A DNA stretch of 64,000 nt from Bacteroidetes bacterium 43-16 (lineage in GTDB: Bacteria > Bacteroidota > Bacteroidia > Chitinophagales > Chitinophagaceae). The notes below the pieces were generated by a model, which saw only the letters and a program-made list of their open reading frames with translations, had not been told where the DNA came from and did no database searches. Position 1 is the first letter of the stretch, and each line of letters opens with the position of its first letter. The DNA is taken from positions 452,869-516,868 of the forward strand of contig MKTB01000017.1 of assembly GCA_001897525.1 (NCBI GenBank). The letters run 5' to 3'. Both the position numbers and the translations under genes were made by a program. Below are positions 23,901 to 31,005 of this stretch, one piece after another.

Positions 23901-24666
23901 CGAGACATCTCCTCGTCCTAAAGCGGCCATCATTCGCGAAAAGGGTTCTAACTCGGAGCGTGAAATGGCGAATGCTATGTACCTGGCTGGTTTTGATGTG
24001 AAGGATGTGCATATGACGGACCTGATTTCGGGTCGGGAGACTTTGGAGGATATCCAGTTCATCGGTGCGGTGGGTGGATTCTCCAACTCTGATGTATTGG
24101 GTTCGGCCAAAGGTTGGGCCGGTGCTTTCCTGTATAATGAAAAGGCGAAAAAGGCTTTGGATAACTTTTTTGCCCGTCCGGACACGATGTCGGTGGGTAT
24201 CTGTAACGGTTGCCAGTTGTTTATGGAACTGGAACTGATCAACCCGGATCATACAGAGCATGGAAAGATGCACCATAATATTTCTGGTAAGCATGAATCG
24301 AATTTTGTTTCGGTGAAGGTGCAGGAGAATAACTCCATTATGCTCAAAACCCTTGCTGGTAGTACTTTGGGCGTATGGATCTCGCATGGTGAGGGTAAGT
24401 TCAACCTGCCTGCTGCAGAAAACCAGTATGATATCGTAGCCAAGTATGCTTATGAGGGTTACCCGCATAACCCGAATGGTTCTGATTATAACACGGCGAT
24501 GTTGTGTGATACAACGGGTCGCCACCTGGTGACGATGCCGCATATTGAGCGTTCTATCTTCCAGTGGAACTGGGCGCACTACCCTGCAGATCGTCGTGAC
24601 GAGGTGAGCCCGTGGATCGAAGGCTTTGTGAATGCAAGGAACTGGTGTGTGGAAAACGGAAAGTAA
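20983..24666 (+). CDS. purL: Phosphoribosylformylglycinamidine synthase PurL
   Basis: 1227 residues, the large single-chain type. Order: N-terminal domain, two AIRS-like synthetase halves (SEHCRHKIFNG; AETHNFPTTVEPFSGAATG; HDHGAGGHLNCLSELVE), then a class I glutaminase with nucleophile C1074 in GICNGCQLF and IREKGSNSEREMANAMYLAG at its start. It converts FGAR and glutamine to FGAM in purine synthesis. Residues 967-977 (PVMSSGVETSP), in the linker before the glutaminase, are encoded by a fragment of the dispersed repeat. A diverged copy of the last 25 or so codons follows the stop. A -7-like TAATTTTG lies at 20939-20946. Confidence 0.97.
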   Translation: MIHFFVNPKNIVYGVQTAQNLSTEDSQKLNWLFGKAQKLDDTTLNHYYVGPRAAMITPWSTNAVEITQNMGIEGIIRIEEFEPVPADFNDFDPMISQKYAALTQEMYTINISPEPVLEIDDIAAYNKQEGLALSGEEVAYLDQLAVKIGRKLTDAEVFAFSQANSEHCRHKIFNGTFVIDGETMPTSLFKLIKKTSETHPNDIVSAYKDNVAFVKGPKVTQFAPKSPDKPDFYEEKEFESVLSLKAETHNFPTTVEPFSGAATGSGGEIRDRLAGGQGALPLAGTAIYMTAYSRLLEDRPWEKGMEARQWLYQTPMDILIKASNGASDFGNKFGQPLITGSVLTFEHEENGRKLGYDKVIMQAGGVGYGKLEQAKKHTPQVGDKIVILGGENYRIGMGGAAVSSADTGAFGSGIELNAIQRSNPEMQKRAANAIRGLVESDHNPIVSIHDHGAGGHLNCLSELVEDTGGLIDLDKLPVGDPTLSAKEIIGNESQERMGLVIGEKDIETLKRVADRERAPMYTVGDVTGDHRFTFESQTTKEKPMDYALEDFFGSSPKTIMNDKKVAYNYAGLSYEVNNIPTYLEQLLQLEAVACKDWLTNKVDRCVGGRVAKQQCAGPLQLPLNNVGVMALDYKSGQGIATTVGHAPLIALVDPAAGSRNAMGEALSNIVFAPIKDGLKGISLSANWMWACNNEGEDARLYEAVQACSDFAIALGINIPTGKDSLSMKQKYPNGENVIAPGTVIISAGGNCIDINKVVEPVLQKNAGSVYYINLSKDAFKLGGSSFAQIQNKIGDEVPTVKDADYFATAFNTIQEAINQQQIAAGHDVGSGGLITTLLELCFADVNLAADYDLSALDEVDTVKALFNENIAVVLQAKEDKDFESLFTNAGIDIVKIGTVTEGAAVSVKNNGDSFSFNVADTRDTWYKTSFLLDQRQSKNGMAQERFNNYKHQPLHYTFPAHFDGKRPVMSSGVETSPRPKAAIIREKGSNSEREMANAMYLAGFDVKDVHMTDLISGRETLEDIQFIGAVGGFSNSDVLGSAKGWAGAFLYNEKAKKALDNFFARPDTMSVGICNGCQLFMELELINPDHTEHGKMHHNISGKHESNFVSVKVQENNSIMLKTLAGSTLGVWISHGEGKFNLPAAENQYDIVAKYAYEGYPHNPNGSDYNTAMLCDTTGRHLVTMPHIERSIFQWNWAHYPADRRDEVSPWIEGFVNARNWCVENGK
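23883..23913 (+). repeat. Dispersed-repeat fragment inside purL
   Basis: The 31 bases starting CGTCATGTCGAGCGGAG and ending GAGACATCTCCT match the terminal part of the intergenic 200-bp repeat (best seen in the inverted copy at 32839-32885). They preserve the purL frame and fall in the interdomain linker. Confidence 0.7.
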
Positions 24667-24674
24667 ATCGAAAT

Positions 24675-24708
24675 AAACCTATAAGGTTTCAAAAAACCTT
24701 ATAGGTTT
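24675..24708. repeat. RAYT-type palindrome, copy 1 (purL terminator)
   Basis: Perfect 15-bp arms AAACCTATAAGGTTT / AAACCTTATAGGTTT around a 4-base loop, 9 bases after the purL stop. Likely also acts as a terminator. Five further copies in the window. Confidence 0.85.
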
Positions 24709-24712
24709 TGTG

Positions 24713-24790
24713 GATCGTCGCGATGAGGTGAGCCCTTGGATCGAAGGCTTTGTGAATGCAAGAAACTGGTGTGTGGAAAACGGAAAGTAA
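24713..24790 (+). pseudogene. Duplicated 3' end of purL
   Basis: Repeats the last 78 bases of purL, offset exactly 124 bases, with a few substitutions (for example GTGACGAG to GCGATGAG, AGGAAC to AGAAAC), including the stop codon. The duplication continues through the following palindrome. It has no start of its own and is a remnant. The substitutions are mostly synonymous, hinting at gene conversion or duplication of a formerly functional end. Confidence 0.8.
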
Positions 24791-24798
24791 ATCAAAAT

Positions 24799-24832
24799 AA
24801 ACCTATAAGGTTTCAAAAAACCTTATAGGTTT
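24799..24832. repeat. RAYT-type palindrome, copy 2
   Basis: Same 15-bp arms and 4-base loop as copy 1, at the end of the duplicated purL tail. Confidence 0.85.
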
Positions 24833-24840
24833 GATAAGAG

Positions 24841-24876
24841 CACCCTGCAAGATTATTTTTGCAGGGTGTTTGTTTT
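24841..24876 (+). terminator. Rho-independent terminator
   Basis: CACCCTGCAA and TTGCAGGGTG (24859-24868) pair around 8 bases, followed by TTTGTTTTT. Presumably the original purL terminator, now separated from the gene by the duplication. Confidence 0.75.
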
Positions 24877-24918
24877 TAGATAGGTATTTTCATAATGAAT
24901 TATTTGTAATTTTAAAAT

Positions 24919-25533
24919 ATGAATAATTATCATCTGGCATTGTTACCTGGAGAGACTTATCATTTGTTTTCAAGGGCTATTGGTGGAGAACGACTGTTTT
25001 TATCGGAAGAGCATTATCATTTTTTTCTTAGAAAAATAAAGCAGCATACTTCAGCGGTTTGTGATTTATACTGTTATGCTTTATTACCGAACCATTTCCA
25101 TTTACTGGTTAGCATAAAAGAAAATGAGGTCATTGTTCAGCATTTTAAAGAAATAAAGAAAAGAGCATTTGATGTAATGAAAGATAATCTTCCTGACTTT
25201 ATCATGGAGCGATTCAGTAATTGTTTGAATAGTTATACCAAATCGTTTAATAAAGTAAATGGACGTAAAGGTGCTCTGTTTATGGACTATATGAAGCGGA
25301 GCTTAGTGAGTAAGGAGGCTGACTTTACTAATTTTGTCTGGTACATACATAAAAATGCGGTGCATCATCAATTAGTTAAGTCGGTAGGTGATTGGAAATA
25401 TGATAGTTACCGTTCTTTGTTGAGCGAGGCACCTACGTCATTGCTAAGGGATGAAGTGATCCGTTGGTTTGGTGGAAGGGAAGAATTTATTAAATTCCAT
25501 CAACAGGATGTTGATCCGAAAATAAACCTATAA
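24919..25533 (+). CDS. REP-associated tyrosine transposase (RAYT, Y1/HUH family)
   Basis: 204 residues, single Y1 transposase domain. The HUH metal motif is HFH at residues 59-61 in YALLPNHFHLLVS, and the candidate catalytic tyrosine is Y142 in FVWYIHKNAVHH. This family cuts single-stranded palindromes and is thought to spread REP elements. Palindromes with 15-bp arms lie on both sides (24675, 24799, 25524, 25649), the third overlapping the last codons and stop. The stop TAA is in fact supplied by the palindrome. It is a single-copy domesticated-type gene with no terminal insertion-sequence ends visible. Confidence 0.9.
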   Translation: MNNYHLALLPGETYHLFSRAIGGERLFLSEEHYHFFLRKIKQHTSAVCDLYCYALLPNHFHLLVSIKENEVIVQHFKEIKKRAFDVMKDNLPDFIMERFSNCLNSYTKSFNKVNGRKGALFMDYMKRSLVSKEADFTNFVWYIHKNAVHHQLVKSVGDWKYDSYRSLLSEAPTSLLRDEVIRWFGGREEFIKFHQQDVDPKINL

Positions 25534-25556
25534 GGTTTCAAAAACCTTATAGGTTT
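25524..25556. repeat. RAYT-type palindrome, copy 3
   Basis: AAACCTATAAGGTTT / AAACCTTATAGGTTT with a CAA loop, followed by T. Overlaps the end of the transposase gene and provides its stop codon. Confidence 0.85.
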
Positions 25557-25648
25557 TGTGTTGCCCTGCTGCTTAGCCCTGCCTTTCCATTTAATACTCC
25601 CGGTAGCACCGGCTTCTGAAAAATATGAAAAAAGCCATCTGAACGGTT

Positions 25649-25681
25649 AAACCTATAAGGTTTCAAAAACCTTATAGGTTT
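25649..25681. repeat. RAYT-type palindrome, copy 4
   Basis: Identical arms and CAA loop to copy 3, 93 bases further on, with unrelated sequence between. Confidence 0.85.
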
Positions 25682-25810
25682 TGAACTTCCCCAACTCTTC
25701 TGTATAAAGCTGGGCCTTGGTTTTTAGGAGTTTTTTTTACTCATCCAAAAAGAAAGGGTATTATACGAAATGAATTAATCACCTATAATTGATCATCTAT
25801 ATATTTAGCC

Positions 25811-26824
25811 CTATTGTTTGAATACTTCTTTTCTATGCCATTCCAGGTTTTCCTGTGCAGGTTGATATTGGGATTCTGTAGGTAAAAAAATAGGCCGGCC
25901 TTGCAGGTTATTCAAGCTGTAGGGATGTGCTTTATCTTCGTTAATATGCGAGGAAACGAGTACCCGGTAATGTTCATCAATACTGACCAGTCCCCGGTCA
26001 AAGGCACGGTGCAGGTTGGGACATAATGCAATGCCATTACTTACCTTATCATCGTGAGTGACCGCAAAGGGTATAATATGGCAGGCATCAATGAAATTGT
26101 ATCTAAAGGTAGTGCGCATACGCATTCCGGTCATAGCGCAGGTGTCCTTGTACAACCGGGGGATATATCGTTTAAACAGGCCGGAGCGTACAAATACATC
26201 TTCTTCGGTAACGAATGACAAATGCTTATATCTTACCTGTGGATCGTTGAGTACCAATGATTGTACCTCTTGATAAAAGCCGTCATTGATTTGCTTGTGT
26301 TGGTAATAACCAGCTTGTTCTTTCTCAAAATATGTGGATAGTATAGCAGCTCTTGCTATCGTTCTGTTTTCGACTTCTGCTAAGTGTAAAAACAGTTCAT
26401 CACGAAAAGCGCCAAATGCTACAGTATGGGATAATGCTTGTACGCTTTTAATAGGTGCATTGATCTGCAAGCCTGGATGTGGATATAAAGTCCAGAAGGA
26501 CTGCCCGGATACTTTCTCGGACTGCAGATAGTAGAAGGGTTGGGTAAAATCGGGCTGGTGGGCTGTAGGTACCAATAGCCGCCAGTTCTCCTGGAATAAA
26601 CCTACAAGATCAACGTTGACCTCAAACCGGTTTTTTAAAACAATACCTCTGTCTATCAACTCAATCAGGGTTAATAATAGTACTGGTTTATGTGGTGCCG
26701 GGCCATACCTGGTAACACCTCGTTTTAAATGGCAAAATGCATTGATGTATGGCTGAAAAGGGTTATCCATGGATTTTAAAGATAGTAAAGATGTTGTAAA
26801 AGAATCCAATTTTGGCATAAGCAT
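25811..26824 (-). CDS. HNH endonuclease, McrA-like restriction type
   Basis: About 337 residues. The C-terminal part (about 225-315) is an HNH_2-type nuclease: CAMTGMRMRTTFRYNFIDACHIIPF, then NGIALCPNLHRAFDRGL, which supplies the His-Asn-His metal site. The N-terminal part (about 20-170) resembles the accessory domain seen in putative type IV or modification-dependent restriction enzymes (YGPAPHKPVLLLTLIELIDRG). Several ATGs are near the N-terminus (residues 1, 3 and 19); MDNPFQPYINAFCHLKRG from residue 19 would also be a sensible start. Lies beside the transposase and TIR-STAND gene in a defence-like region. Confidence 0.82.
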   Translation of the reverse strand: MLMPKLDSFTTSLLSLKSMDNPFQPYINAFCHLKRGVTRYGPAPHKPVLLLTLIELIDRGIVLKNRFEVNVDLVGLFQENWRLLVPTAHQPDFTQPFYYLQSEKVSGQSFWTLYPHPGLQINAPIKSVQALSHTVAFGAFRDELFLHLAEVENRTIARAAILSTYFEKEQAGYYQHKQINDGFYQEVQSLVLNDPQVRYKHLSFVTEEDVFVRSGLFKRYIPRLYKDTCAMTGMRMRTTFRYNFIDACHIIPFAVTHDDKVSNGIALCPNLHRAFDRGLVSIDEHYRVLVSSHINEDKAHPYSLNNLQGRPIFLPTESQYQPAQENLEWHRKEVFKQ

Positions 26825-26975
26825 TTATACATACCCATAAAAATACTTCTAAGTACTACATTTTTTAATGTATGCTATAGGTTTGTTGCTTATGGGAATC
26901 TATAAGGGTAATTTGCAATACATGAGTTCTTATGTAGTATTGGTAGGAAAGGATCGGAATAAAAGCCAGCAATTG

Positions 26976-27395
26976 CTAGCAGTTCAGGAACACTCCTTGT
27001 GAAGTCCGGAACATTCGTTGTAAGGTCCGGAATACAGTTTGTAAGGTTCGGAACATCGCTTGTAAGGTCAGGAAAACCGTTTGTAAGGTCGGGAACATGA
27101 CTTGTAAGCTCCGGAATATCGCTTGTAAGGTCCGGAATATCGCTTGTAAGGTTGGGAACATTACTTGTAAGGTTCGGAAAACCGTTTGTAAGGTCGGGAA
27201 AACCGTTTGTAAGGTCGGGAATATCGCTTGTAAGGTTGGGAACATGACTTGTAAGGTTCGGAAAACCGTTTGTAAGGTTCGGAACATCGTTTGTAAGGTC
27301 GGGAACATGACTTGTAAGGCTCGGAATATCGTTTGTAAGGTTCGGAAAACCGCTTGTAGGGTCAGGAATATCTTTTGTAAGGTCCGGAAAACCAG
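26976..27395. repeat. 21-bp tandem repeat array, about 20 units
   Basis: The unit TTGTAAGGTCCGGAATATCGC (written in one form) recurs with exactly 21-base spacing from 26997 to 27375 (19 clear anchors) plus a diverged unit before. Position-specific variation (GGTC/GGTT, GGAA followed by CAT, TAT or AAC) makes several unit subtypes. Because 21 is a multiple of three, two opposite frames stay open: a heptad CKVRNIA pattern on + and FRTLQTV on -. No start-site context supports either as a gene. The flanks up to the HNH gene and the TIR gene are AT-rich and featureless. Confidence 0.9.
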
Positions 27396-27551
27396 CTTTT
27401 TGCTTAACTATTTATATGTTTAATAGAAAAAATACGGGAATTCCAGTATAGGATATTTATAAAGAGTAGAAGATATTTGTTGCATTAAATCAAGGGATTG
27501 GTTTAGAAATTACAAATGAAATGATTATTATTTACTGATTAACCTATAAAT

Positions 27552-29873
27552 ATGAATAGAGCTTTTTTATCACACAGTAGCAAACAAAAGCAGCTGGTAC
27601 AGCAAATTGCAAATAATTTAGGTAAAGCAAACTGTGTTTTTGACGAATTTGAGTTTGAATCAGGAATGCCACTTTTTGATGAGATAAAAAAAAGTATTGG
27701 ACAAAGTGATGTCTTTGTTTTATTTTTATCAGATGATGCATTAAATTCTGAATGGGTTAAATTAGAGATTACTGAAATTAAGAATTTAATAGATAATGGA
27801 TTAGATAAACAGTTCTTTCCAATTTTGATAGACAAATCTTTGGATGTTTCAAATGATGAACGAATTCCAAACTGGATAAAAAAATTTTTATTAAAACCAA
27901 TCTCTGAGCATTTTCTAATTACAAAGAAAATAAGGCAAAGACTCCTTGAATTGAGATTGGACACCAATCCGATTTTTAAAGCTAAGGCTAGTTTATTTGT
28001 AGGGAGGCAAGATTTATTTGATCAATTAGAGGCAAAAATTTATTCTTTATCTGAAATGAAGCCTAGATCAATTATTGTTTCTGGATTTGAGGGTATTGGT
28101 AGAAGAACATTTCTTAAAGAAGCTTTTTTAAGAGAAAAACGAATAAAAGATTTTTATTCACCAATATACATTACTCTTGATACAAAGGATAGCATAGAAG
28201 ATTTTATTCTTAAATTACAGGATTACAAAGGAGGGAATACAGCCGAATACCTAGATCAGCTTTCTCAAGTAGAGTTTGAGGAAAAGGTTTTGGAAGCAAA
28301 AAAGCTCCTAATAGCAGTAAAGAATTCGAATGAATATGTATTTATTATCGACTCTGGATGTATCGTAAAGCCTAATAAGCAATTAGCAGATTGGTTTTTA
28401 CAAATAATTGACAGCGAAGAATTCGACAATCTTTTTACACTAAATATTATTTCAAGATTTAGACCCTCAAATGAGTTAATTAGAGGTAATAAAGGTATAA
28501 TTCATTTTAATGTTTCGAATTTATCTGAAAAAGATACGGAAAAATTATTTGTTAAATATTATTCATTTCTTAAACTTGATCTAAAAACAGATCAGGCACA
28601 AGAAATTCTAAATGTTCTTAATGGTATTCCATCTCAAGTCCACTATGCTGTTGAAAGAATTAAGGATTTCGGTATCATTGAAACATTAAAGAAAAAAGAG
28701 GAGATAGTTGATTATGGAGAAACACAAGTTTATTATATGGTTGATAATATTAGGTCTAAAGGGAAATTCGCTTTTGATCTACTAGTTTTAATCTCAAACT
28801 TTGATTTTATAAGTTATGATTTTGTTTATTCCATTGTTGGTAAAACAGAAGAGGTTGATAATTTACTGGAAGACTTTTTCATTACTGGTGTTTTTGATTT
28901 AGTCGGAGCTAATAAAGAGTATATTAAAGTCCATTATCCAATTGCAGATTATTTAACCCGATCGAAAGCTAAGATTGACTCTTCATTTAAGCTTACATTA
29001 AAGCAGAAAATAAATAGTTTTATAAATGATGAGGGAAAAATTAAGGATTTTCAGGATGTTTCTGAACTATTACATAACATTAAAGGTGCAATAATTGCCA
29101 ATTATGATTTGCCGGACAAATACTATATTCCTTCATTTGTTTTGAAGACAATTGTAGAACTTTATTACTTGGAAAATTATTCAAGCGTTATAGCCCTTAT
29201 AGATAAAGTTCTTGAAAATTCCAGTCGAATTGATAAAGATCTTGTTAGAGAATTTAAATATTGGCTTTGCCTATCACTGGCCAGAAAAAAAGAGCCAAGG
29301 TTTGAATCTGAAGTGAAAAATATTGAAGGTGCAGATTATAACTATCTTTTTGGTTTTTATTTTAGAATTAACAAACAATTAGATAATGCAGAAACTTATT
29401 TAAAAGGAGCCCTTTTAAAAAATCCAGGTTTTCAAAGAGCAAAAAGAGAATTAGTAAATGTTTTGCTATTAAAATCAAATTTTAGCGAAGCATTAAGTAT
29501 GGCAAAGTCAAATTATGAGAATCAAAAGTTAAATGCATTTCATATTCAAGCATATTTTATTTCATTAACAAGAAAAAAATTCCTATCAAAAGAAGACAAA
29601 TTAATGATAGAAGAACTTCTTAAAAATATAGAGCGTAGTTCTGATTTTAGAGCTAAAGAAATAGCATCTGTTATGCAAGGAGAATATCTTTATTATGTTA
29701 AAAATGATAAAGCTAATTCAATCAGAACGTTGAGAGAATGTTTAGATAAAAATAAGAGTAAACACTATCCTAAAAAGGCTTTAAATGATATTTATAAAAG
29801 AGCTGATCTGATAATGATTGCTAACGAACTAAATTCAAAGTACAATAACGATGATGAGACATTTGACTATTAA
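27552..29873 (+). CDS. TIR-STAND NTPase-TPR protein, probable anti-phage defence
   Basis: 773 residues. Residues 1-about 130 are a TIR domain (FLSHSSKQK, then DEFEFESGMPLFDEIKKSI and the motif NSEWVKLE with candidate catalytic E72), which in bacterial defence proteins cleaves NAD+. Residues about 150-420 are a STAND-type NTPase with P-loop GFEGIGRRT (178-186; Arg where Lys is usual) and a Walker B-like YVFIIDSG. A winged-helix-like part follows, and the C-terminus (about 600-770) is helical repeats of TPR type, the likely sensor. The gene is far more AT-rich than its neighbours, indicating transfer. No partner gene adjoins it. Confidence 0.85.
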   Translation: MNRAFLSHSSKQKQLVQQIANNLGKANCVFDEFEFESGMPLFDEIKKSIGQSDVFVLFLSDDALNSEWVKLEITEIKNLIDNGLDKQFFPILIDKSLDVSNDERIPNWIKKFLLKPISEHFLITKKIRQRLLELRLDTNPIFKAKASLFVGRQDLFDQLEAKIYSLSEMKPRSIIVSGFEGIGRRTFLKEAFLREKRIKDFYSPIYITLDTKDSIEDFILKLQDYKGGNTAEYLDQLSQVEFEEKVLEAKKLLIAVKNSNEYVFIIDSGCIVKPNKQLADWFLQIIDSEEFDNLFTLNIISRFRPSNELIRGNKGIIHFNVSNLSEKDTEKLFVKYYSFLKLDLKTDQAQEILNVLNGIPSQVHYAVERIKDFGIIETLKKKEEIVDYGETQVYYMVDNIRSKGKFAFDLLVLISNFDFISYDFVYSIVGKTEEVDNLLEDFFITGVFDLVGANKEYIKVHYPIADYLTRSKAKIDSSFKLTLKQKINSFINDEGKIKDFQDVSELLHNIKGAIIANYDLPDKYYIPSFVLKTIVELYYLENYSSVIALIDKVLENSSRIDKDLVREFKYWLCLSLARKKEPRFESEVKNIEGADYNYLFGFYFRINKQLDNAETYLKGALLKNPGFQRAKRELVNVLLLKSNFSEALSMAKSNYENQKLNAFHIQAYFISLTRKKFLSKEDKLMIEELLKNIERSSDFRAKEIASVMQGEYLYYVKNDKANSIRTLRECLDKNKSKHYPKKALNDIYKRADLIMIANELNSKYNNDDETFDY

Positions 29874-30012
29874 TAATAATTTTTAAATATAGTAGTGAAT
29901 AATGTAAGTTGAAATAGGATTATTATTTTATTTCTTATAAAAGTTAAAGAAGTTAATGTAATTTCTCCATTTTTGAGGTATATAATTAATAATCGTTACC
30001 TAACTGTTCATA

Positions 30013-31005
30013 TTACCCCTCCCCCAACCTCTTCCTTAACAAACACAAAACCCCCAGTTCCTCCACAGAGAGCTGCTCATTGTTTTTGAGTAGTCTTTTT
30101 ACCGAACGGTTCATATTGGCTAAGGTGCGGCCCTGGGTGTAATGCGTGATCACCCGGGGGTCGATGTAGGAACTGCGCGCGATGGCCGGGGTATTGCCCA
30201 GCTTTTCGCTTACCGTCACCACGGCATCGCGGATATTTTTCTTCAATCGCTTCTGGTCTTCGGCCTCCACGGCACCGATCTCGTCCAGGGCCATAGCAGC
30301 GATCACGGTACCGGCCCAGGTACGGAAATCTTTGGCGGAGAACTCCTCGCCCATCGTCTCGCGGATATACTCGTTCAGGTCATTGCTCCGGATATCATGT
30401 AAATTATCTTCCTCATCCAGGTATTTAAAGATCTCATAGCCCGGCAGTTCGTCCAGCTCCTGTACGATCTTAGTCAGGCGTGCATCCATTATATGCTTTT
30501 CCTGGTCTTGTCCCGACTTGCCCCGGAAGCTAAAGATCATTTCATTGCCCCTGATCTCCAGGTGCTTGCTGCGTAGTGTGGTGAGCCCGTAGCTTTGATT
30601 GGCCTTTCGGTAGGATTCATTGCCGGGTCTGAAGAAGGCTGCATCCAGCAGGCGCACCATGGTAGCCAGTACCTTATCGCGGCTCAATTTACGTTTGCGT
30701 AAATGCTGACCCGTCACCCGGCGCATATGCTCGAGCTGCTTTGCAAAGCGGATGATGCGGTCAAACTTCAGCTCATCCTGCTGCTTGCGGTATTTAGGAT
30801 TGTAGATATATTGTTTACGGCCTTTGGCATCATAGCCCGTGGCTTGTACCTTGGCCCTCGGCGAGGTATTGATGCTGACCTGCTCCCAGGCCGGGGGGAT
30901 AACGAGAGATTTGAAAAACTCCTTCAATTGAGGATCTGATATAGGCTGACCCGAATTGTCGGTATAACTAAAGCCTTTCCCTTTTCTGATGCGCTGACAG
31001 ATCAT
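30013..31005 (-). CDS. DNA topoisomerase IB
   Basis: 330 residues, poxvirus-like bacterial type IB topoisomerase. Active-site segments: VRLLDAAFFRPGNESY (first Arg), LTTLRSKHLEI (Lys), KDFRTWAGT (Arg) and ARSSYIDPRVI (nucleophilic Tyr). It relaxes supercoils by a 3'-phosphotyrosine intermediate; scattered among bacteria and not essential. The strand-divergent neighbour is a beta-lactamase-fold hydrolase. Starts at MICQRIRKGKGF. Confidence 0.93.
   Translation of the reverse strand: MICQRIRKGKGFSYTDNSGQPISDPQLKEFFKSLVIPPAWEQVSINTSPRAKVQATGYDAKGRKQYIYNPKYRKQQDELKFDRIIRFAKQLEHMRRVTGQHLRKRKLSRDKVLATMVRLLDAAFFRPGNESYRKANQSYGLTTLRSKHLEIRGNEMIFSFRGKSGQDQEKHIMDARLTKIVQELDELPGYEIFKYLDEEDNLHDIRSNDLNEYIRETMGEEFSAKDFRTWAGTVIAAMALDEIGAVEAEDQKRLKKNIRDAVVTVSEKLGNTPAIARSSYIDPRVITHYTQGRTLANMNRSVKRLLKNNEQLSVEELGVLCLLRKRLGEG

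Follow-up and report, generated by a model that had tools for sequence, protein, structure and literature searches.

Does a strongly AT-rich gene, whose product joins a TIR domain, a STAND-like core and helical repeats in one chain, encode an immune receptor against phages, and what should be made of the Arg residue that its P-loop carries at the position of the Walker A Lys? The gene lies in the window (the whole 64,000-nt stretch of DNA analysed here) and had been described in a first-pass annotation as an acquired, NLR-like and probably anti-phage gene. Our analysis makes it highly probable that the gene arrived by horizontal transfer and encodes a single-gene anti-phage immune receptor belonging to the TIR-NLR family, acting by a mechanism that we infer. 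The gene and its parts are as follows; counts refer to the 68 distinct full-length family members aligned (see below).

27552..29873, plus strand: TIR-NLR gene, 773 aa, standing alone, with an HNH gene divergent upstream and a topoisomerase IB gene convergent downstream.
27552..27836, plus strand: TIR domain, residues 1-95 (Pfam TIR_2, E 3e-16 over residues 5-95; alternating strands and helices in the model).
27765..27767, plus strand: candidate catalytic Glu72 (Glu in 68/68 rows; aligned with E74 of Cat1).
27990..28751, plus strand: STAND-like NTPase core, residues 147-400 approximately (limits set by eye from the model; AAA_16 below cut-off; Foldseek).
28083..28109, plus strand: variant P-loop GFEGIGRRT, residues 178-186, with Arg184 at the Walker A Lys position.
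28350..28352, plus strand: Asp267, at the end of a Walker B-like strand, VFIID (Asp in 66/68 rows; strand 263-268).
29130..29846, plus strand: TPR-like helical repeats, residues 527-765 approximately, the presumed sensor (helix pairs in the model; TPR_19 at 0.0018, below cut-off; TPR matches in profile searches).

The open reading frame starts with ATG and has no internal stops. The reverse-complement frame, translated across it, contains many stops, and a 142-aa minus-strand ORF overlapping the start of the gene (27539-27967) was taken as a chance occurrence. Full-length homologues at approximately 20 to 63% identity in several phyla, together with a dN/dS ratio of about 0.11 relative to the nearest relative (L038; dS is 2.6, near saturation), indicate that the frame is real. 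GC content is 28.4%, against a mean of 44.6% (sd 4.7) for the 44 window ORFs of at least 150 aa, and GC3 is the lowest of the set (19.7%; mean 48.3%, sd 7.7). The gene is thus AT-rich and an outlier in composition, as had been noted, and the earlier reading of it as acquired is supported. A search of Rfam over 24600-30100 gave no match at the gathering threshold, and a promoter scan returned 19 matches, no excess over the 16.1 (sd 4.8) found in shuffled sequence.

In a Pfam scan of the window protein, the TIR_2 match was accompanied by ThsB_TIR (1.1e-4), with TIR, TPR_19 and AAA_16 matching weakly, all three below their cut-offs; NACHT was absent among the five families listed up to E 0.1. The PADLOC model for TIR-NLR (PDLC03015) matched residues 1-759 with an E value of 2e-123, covering model positions 1-758 of 824. 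No Avs model was among the five PADLOC families returned up to E 1, and the ThsB match was partial, weak (1.5e-6) and confined to the TIR part. Assignment to Thoeris ThsB was therefore rejected, as the match is not full length and the adjacent genes encode an HNH protein and topoisomerase IB, not ThsA; assignments to bNACHT and AVAST were likewise set aside, with no NACHT in Pfam and no Avs in PADLOC. A full-length model match, a TIR domain with a conserved Glu, and a STAND-like core followed by TPR-like repeats are what the TIR-NLR family is recognized by, and all are found here. Judged from its sequence, the gene is a divergent, intact member of an anti-phage family that has already been described. 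The search against TIR-STAND defence families proposed in the first-pass annotation therefore returned a near-full-length match, which argues for the NLR-like defence layout that had been claimed.

A search of PDB sequences pointed the same way. Residues 2-751 matched entries 9m0n and 9umd (10 chains in two entries; "Tetratricopeptide repeat protein", 824 aa) with an E value of 2.2e-115. The 9m0n chain is nearly identical, over all 824 residues, to a protein of E. coli strain B19 that scores 1878.7 bits against the PADLOC TIR-NLR model and covers all of its 824 positions; the window protein is 33% identical to the B19 protein over 753 columns. In strain B19 the gene sits beside tRNA-Leu, flanked on one side by a phage polarity suppression gene and on the other by a gene for a tyrosine integrase; this site is equivalent to the psu-int hotspot described for P4 satellites in excerpts of PMC9122126. 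The STAND-TPR part of the E. coli-type protein occurs in 26 of 5,426 complete E. coli genomes. According to the portions of Rousset et al. 2022 drawn upon here (PMC9122126), a single-gene TIR-STAND-TPR protein from a P4 satellite of E. coli blocks phages. A literature search found no paper containing the codes 9m0n and 9umd and, by topic, none describing these structures among the matches listed.

The fold of the window protein was predicted with AlphaFold2 from a 38-row alignment (A2). The model (mean pLDDT 85.9, pTM 0.66) has the strand/helix alternation of a TIR domain at its N-terminus and ends in a helical array that reaches residue 765, where the TPR-like repeats that had been noticed are found in the same chain as the TIR domain. 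Between these parts lie a P-loop-like strand-loop-helix (strand 173-178, helix 184-194) and the Walker B-like strand. When the model was compared to the PDB with Foldseek, the best match was the tetramer core of the plant TIR-NLR RPP1 (7dfv_B, E 1.4e-9), with a TM-score of 0.35 by query length and 15% identity; the next rows include Apaf-1, NRC3, CED-4 and a MalT complex, with TM-scores by query length of 0.35 at most, and an Avs5 filament is also among the matches listed. Structure 9m0n was absent from the best 50 matches, and its comparison with the window protein is by sequence only. These matches, low as their TM-scores are, support an NB-ARC/STAND-like core, a predicted fold that says nothing of nucleotide binding. 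The outcome that the first-pass annotation had named as counting against it, a prediction lacking an NTPase fold, was not the one obtained.

The presence of a maltose-system structure among the Foldseek matches raises another reading of the gene. Some STAND proteins, MalT among them, act as regulators, and the window protein might be a TIR-STAND regulator with no part in defence. We regard this as very improbable: the Pfam scan of the protein shows no DNA-binding domain, the composition of the gene is odd, the nearest TIR-NLR relatives lie beside restriction-type genes, and the E. coli relative was experimentally tested for phage protection (PMC9122126, in the part cited above).

To return to the reading as an immune receptor, the TIR domain has a candidate catalytic site. 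Glu72, which had been singled out as candidate catalytic residue, is Glu in all 68 distinct full-length rows, a count that, like the other conservation counts given here, rests mostly on loci retrieved with one TIR-domain peptide pattern and so favours that TIR sequence. In a HMMER alignment with the CRISPR-associated protein Cat1, residues S7, H8, D33, S68 and E74 of Cat1 fall on S7, H8, D31, S66 and E72 of the window protein. The NADase site of Cat1 is reported to be lined by these five residues among others, and a D33A change lowers activity in vitro only in part (excerpts of PMC12162218). The alignment suggests that the window protein may be an NADase as well.

In the P-loop, GFEGIGRRT, present at residues 178-186 of the STAND-like core as first noted, Arg184 occupies the position of the Walker A Lys and Arg185 that of the Ser/Thr. 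The sequence departs from the Walker A consensus GxxxxGK[ST], and because of the Arg at the Lys position we do not call the protein a canonical NTPase. The Walker B acidic residue is in place (D267, kept in 66 of 68 rows). The substitution had been flagged as worth testing; it is real, but it is not peculiar to the window protein, since 64 of the 68 rows carry Arg and only four carry Lys (L047, L064, L067 and L070). Arg is therefore a feature of the family, the E. coli member included. On the tree, a quick one with SH-aLRT support only and a midpoint root, the distribution of the two residues requires two changes. The simplest reading of this midpoint-rooted tree is that Arg became fixed early in the TIR-NLR family.

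The 68 rows come mostly from loci among the 80 best of the 113 confirmed places; a contig search with the window protein alone had found no relative, and a search with an alignment (A1) did. Matches were obtained at 96 loci; 72 of these were full length and, with the window added, gave 73 rows (69 Arg, 4 Lys), from which we removed a broken copy (L121) and four records that duplicated others. Of the 24 matching loci not kept as full length, 16 reach the P-loop, 11 with Arg and five with Lys. Three of these Lys rows (L112, L114 and L115) may lie outside the family, as their loop is of the ordinary GVGK[TS]S type and their match to the query ends at about residue 194. As a yardstick, 296 genomes of the phylum were searched for NACHT, and the 30 best-scoring loci listed all have Lys; these loci were ranked by a Lys-type model, are biased to Lys on that account, and do not make a fair sample. 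A limited literature search gave, among the matches listed, no prior report of antiphage STAND proteins with Arg in their P-loop.

PaAvs5 is a STAND protein whose loop is canonical; there, changing the Walker A Lys to Ala abolishes immunity (excerpts of PMC12931631), and this result, taken with the lack of the Lys here, speaks against the receptor reading. It could mean that the STAND core is degenerate and serves as a scaffold with no nucleotide switch, clustering through the TPRs being all that activates the TIR domains. If the site were dead, there would be no need to conserve G183 (68 of 68 rows) and D267, and Lys is present in four rows by way of two changes on the tree; such a scaffold strikes us as rather unlikely, though of the alternatives considered it is the one to which we give most weight. 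Under the receptor reading, the Arg would lead one to expect a switch that is operated by the binding of nucleotide and in which hydrolysis is weak or lacking, which is a guess on our part. A bolder and only tentative proposal, somewhat doubtful as it stands, is that TIR-NLRs form a branch of the NLRs built round an Arg-containing nucleotide switch that was fixed before the family spread across phyla, and that their signalling relies on nucleotide binding and dispenses with ordinary hydrolysis, or uses a different ligand. The Lys of Walker A is commonly described as invariant among P-loop NTPases, and its replacement in 64 of 68 rows turns into a testable matter the question of whether NLR firing needs ATP hydrolysis. 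The Lys members L064, L067, L070 and L047 are natural comparisons for this purpose.

The distribution of the family is patchy. The window genome is placed, by inference, in Bacteroidota, class Bacteroidia, since a locus assigned to its class (L009) yields a protein identical to that of the Flavobacterium rakeshii locus L046. The four same-genus genomes searched have no TIR-NLR match. When 395 genomes of the phylum were scanned with the family model, 45 matched, five of them (that of the window included) over the full length and at 1e-113 or better; the other 40 have partial matches, mostly to the TIR alone. Since partial matches to this model are common, only full-length ones were counted. The nearest relatives are from a Bacteroidales MAG (L038, 63% identity), Cyclobacterium (L039, 58%) and Psychroflexus (L040, 58%), which we take to represent three different orders; L038 is from a metagenome bin and its contig may be misplaced. 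Plasmid matches were found in six of 72,556 records, three of which cover 80% of the query or more, and 50,697 phage records gave no match at E 1e-5. The odd composition, the patchiness and the mixed kinship fit horizontal transfer.

The TIR motif was present in all six viral loci examined (five contigs). One of the viral-contig copies of the E. coli-type gene (L121, and L186) has TIR and STAND in different frames; it is a broken copy or an assembly error, E. coli genomes having intact copies. We also considered a STAND-TPR module joined to some other effector and rejected it. A TIR-less query of 532 residues matched three of 296 genomes, two through TIR-NLR genes and one weakly with stops in frame, and a profile of residues 140-700 approximately, run against the 395 phylum genomes, gave five full-length matches, all to TIR-NLR genes already found, its other matches being short and within the TPR part.

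Two further features lie immediately upstream of the gene:

25811..26824, minus strand: HNH endonuclease gene (HNH_2, 4.9e-12), the divergent neighbour, in the same variable segment.
26987..27393, no strand: array of a 21-nt tandem repeat, about 19 copies, between the HNH and TIR-NLR genes.

The restriction-type HNH neighbour reported earlier is indeed there, but the 68 loci give no sign of a fixed partnership: the HNH family lies near only one other of them (L119, five genes away), and it was dropped as a fixed partner. The HNH gene is probably independent of the TIR-NLR gene. Its product scores 107 bits against the NCBIfam model PT-DNA_restrict (NF045808), below the cut-off of 180, and the gene has no match in any of the four same-genus genomes. 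A search of the window genome for DndC, the only component looked for, gave no match, as would suit a restriction-like HNH enzyme directed at phosphorothioate DNA, whose target has to be absent from its own cell. The pattern for the 21-nt repeat occurs at three places in the genome, all inside the array, and has no Rfam match.

No neighbour family recurs in more than five of the 68 loci (BLASTP at 1e-8; at many loci the flanks are short). One family is found immediately upstream on the same strand in L035, L088 and L098 (gaps of 13, 54 and 48 bases) and near the TIR-NLR gene elsewhere in L077 and L096. Its members are possible accessory genes in part of the family, and they count against a single-gene reading. 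Together with the weak ThsB matches of the TIR part, they leave some room for a Thoeris-like arrangement, in which the TIR domain would make a signal of the cyclic ADP-ribose type for a separate effector and would not itself deplete NAD+. The scarcity of recurrent neighbours, the position of the window gene alone between a divergent and a convergent gene, and the description of the tested E. coli TIR-NLR as a single gene in the cited part of PMC9122126 make such an arrangement quite unlikely. In the window, the gene looks self-sufficient. As to the defence context of the relatives, in L038 the gene is flanked by a type II restriction enzyme gene (4 bases off) and an overlapping methyltransferase gene, and McrBC genes lie near it in L039 and L040. 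In L041 and L082, which come next in kinship, the neighbours tested (two and one, respectively) gave no defence match, which weighs against the receptor reading.

The chromosomal site was compared with that of one same-genus genome (G004). Close kin of the topIB gene (85-90%) occur in three of the four same-genus genomes, and kin of purL (95%) only in G004, where the distance from purL to topIB is about 8.7 kb versus 5.4 kb in the window. Three adjacent genes in the G004 interval (L138:12845-17735) match the PADLOC candidate cassette PDC-M60A/B/C; one encodes a protein of 1125 aa and the other two encode proteins with receiver domains. A beta-lactamase-like gene is on the other side of topIB in G004, indicating that the segment has been rearranged there. 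The purL-topIB segment may be a site where related species exchange defence cassettes, as far as a single sister genome can tell.

Several repeats were observed near purL. The 3' end of this gene is taken in by a 124-bp tandem duplication (24589-24832; two copies, 95% match), to both copies of which G004 aligns with a single stretch. A REP-element-like palindrome, ACCTATAAGGTTTCAAAAACCTTATAGGT, at 25526-25679 has 45 exact copies in the genome; allowing up to two mismatches gives 79 rows (both strands, some places twice) and none for a backwards control. The gene at 24919-25533 resembles a Y1 transposase (Pfam 0.0036, below cut-off) and is possibly a REP-associated tyrosine transposase for these palindromes.

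Under the receptor reading, the protein would be held inactive at rest by the TPR-like array and the NTPase core. Binding of a phage component to the repeats would trigger a change of shape in the STAND core with its bound nucleotide, and the protein would oligomerise, possibly as in the RPP1 tetramer. The TIR domains would then pair and cleave NAD+, and phage growth would end by depletion or growth arrest. The mechanism suggested in the first-pass annotation is the one put forward for the E. coli TIR-NLR in excerpts of PMC9122126, as a hypothesis there too: infection may be sensed by the TPRs, with oligomerisation of the STAND core and degradation of NAD+ by the TIR.

Comparison with known systems places the window protein as follows. 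Plant RPP1 (7dfv, 7crc) is its best match in Foldseek. RPP1 consists of a TIR plus an NB-ARC core, as in the layout of the window protein, and is a plant receptor with LRRs, in place of which the window protein has TPR-like repeats. The Sir2 effector of Avs5 is NAD+-linked. Avs5 (AVAST type 5) shares with the window protein a STAND core, C-terminal repeats and an N-terminal effector linked to NAD+, but that effector is Sir2, not TIR, and the Walker A motif is a canonical GPAGSGKT (excerpts of PMC12931631). With Cat1 the likeness is limited to the TIR domain, where the NADase-site residues line up; Cat1 has a CARF sensor and neither STAND nor TPR. The closest system is the TIR-NLR of E. coli P4 satellites, which has the same three-part architecture nearly end to end, the GxGRR[T/S] P-loop and the catalytic Glu, and probably the single-gene organization. 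It differs in sequence (33% identity), in length (824 versus 773 aa, the window protein being shorter at the C-terminus) and in location, the window gene residing in the chromosomal purL-topIB segment and not in a P4 satellite. With the window protein, a family that has a tested example in E. coli and a solved structure gains a further member, divergent and intact.
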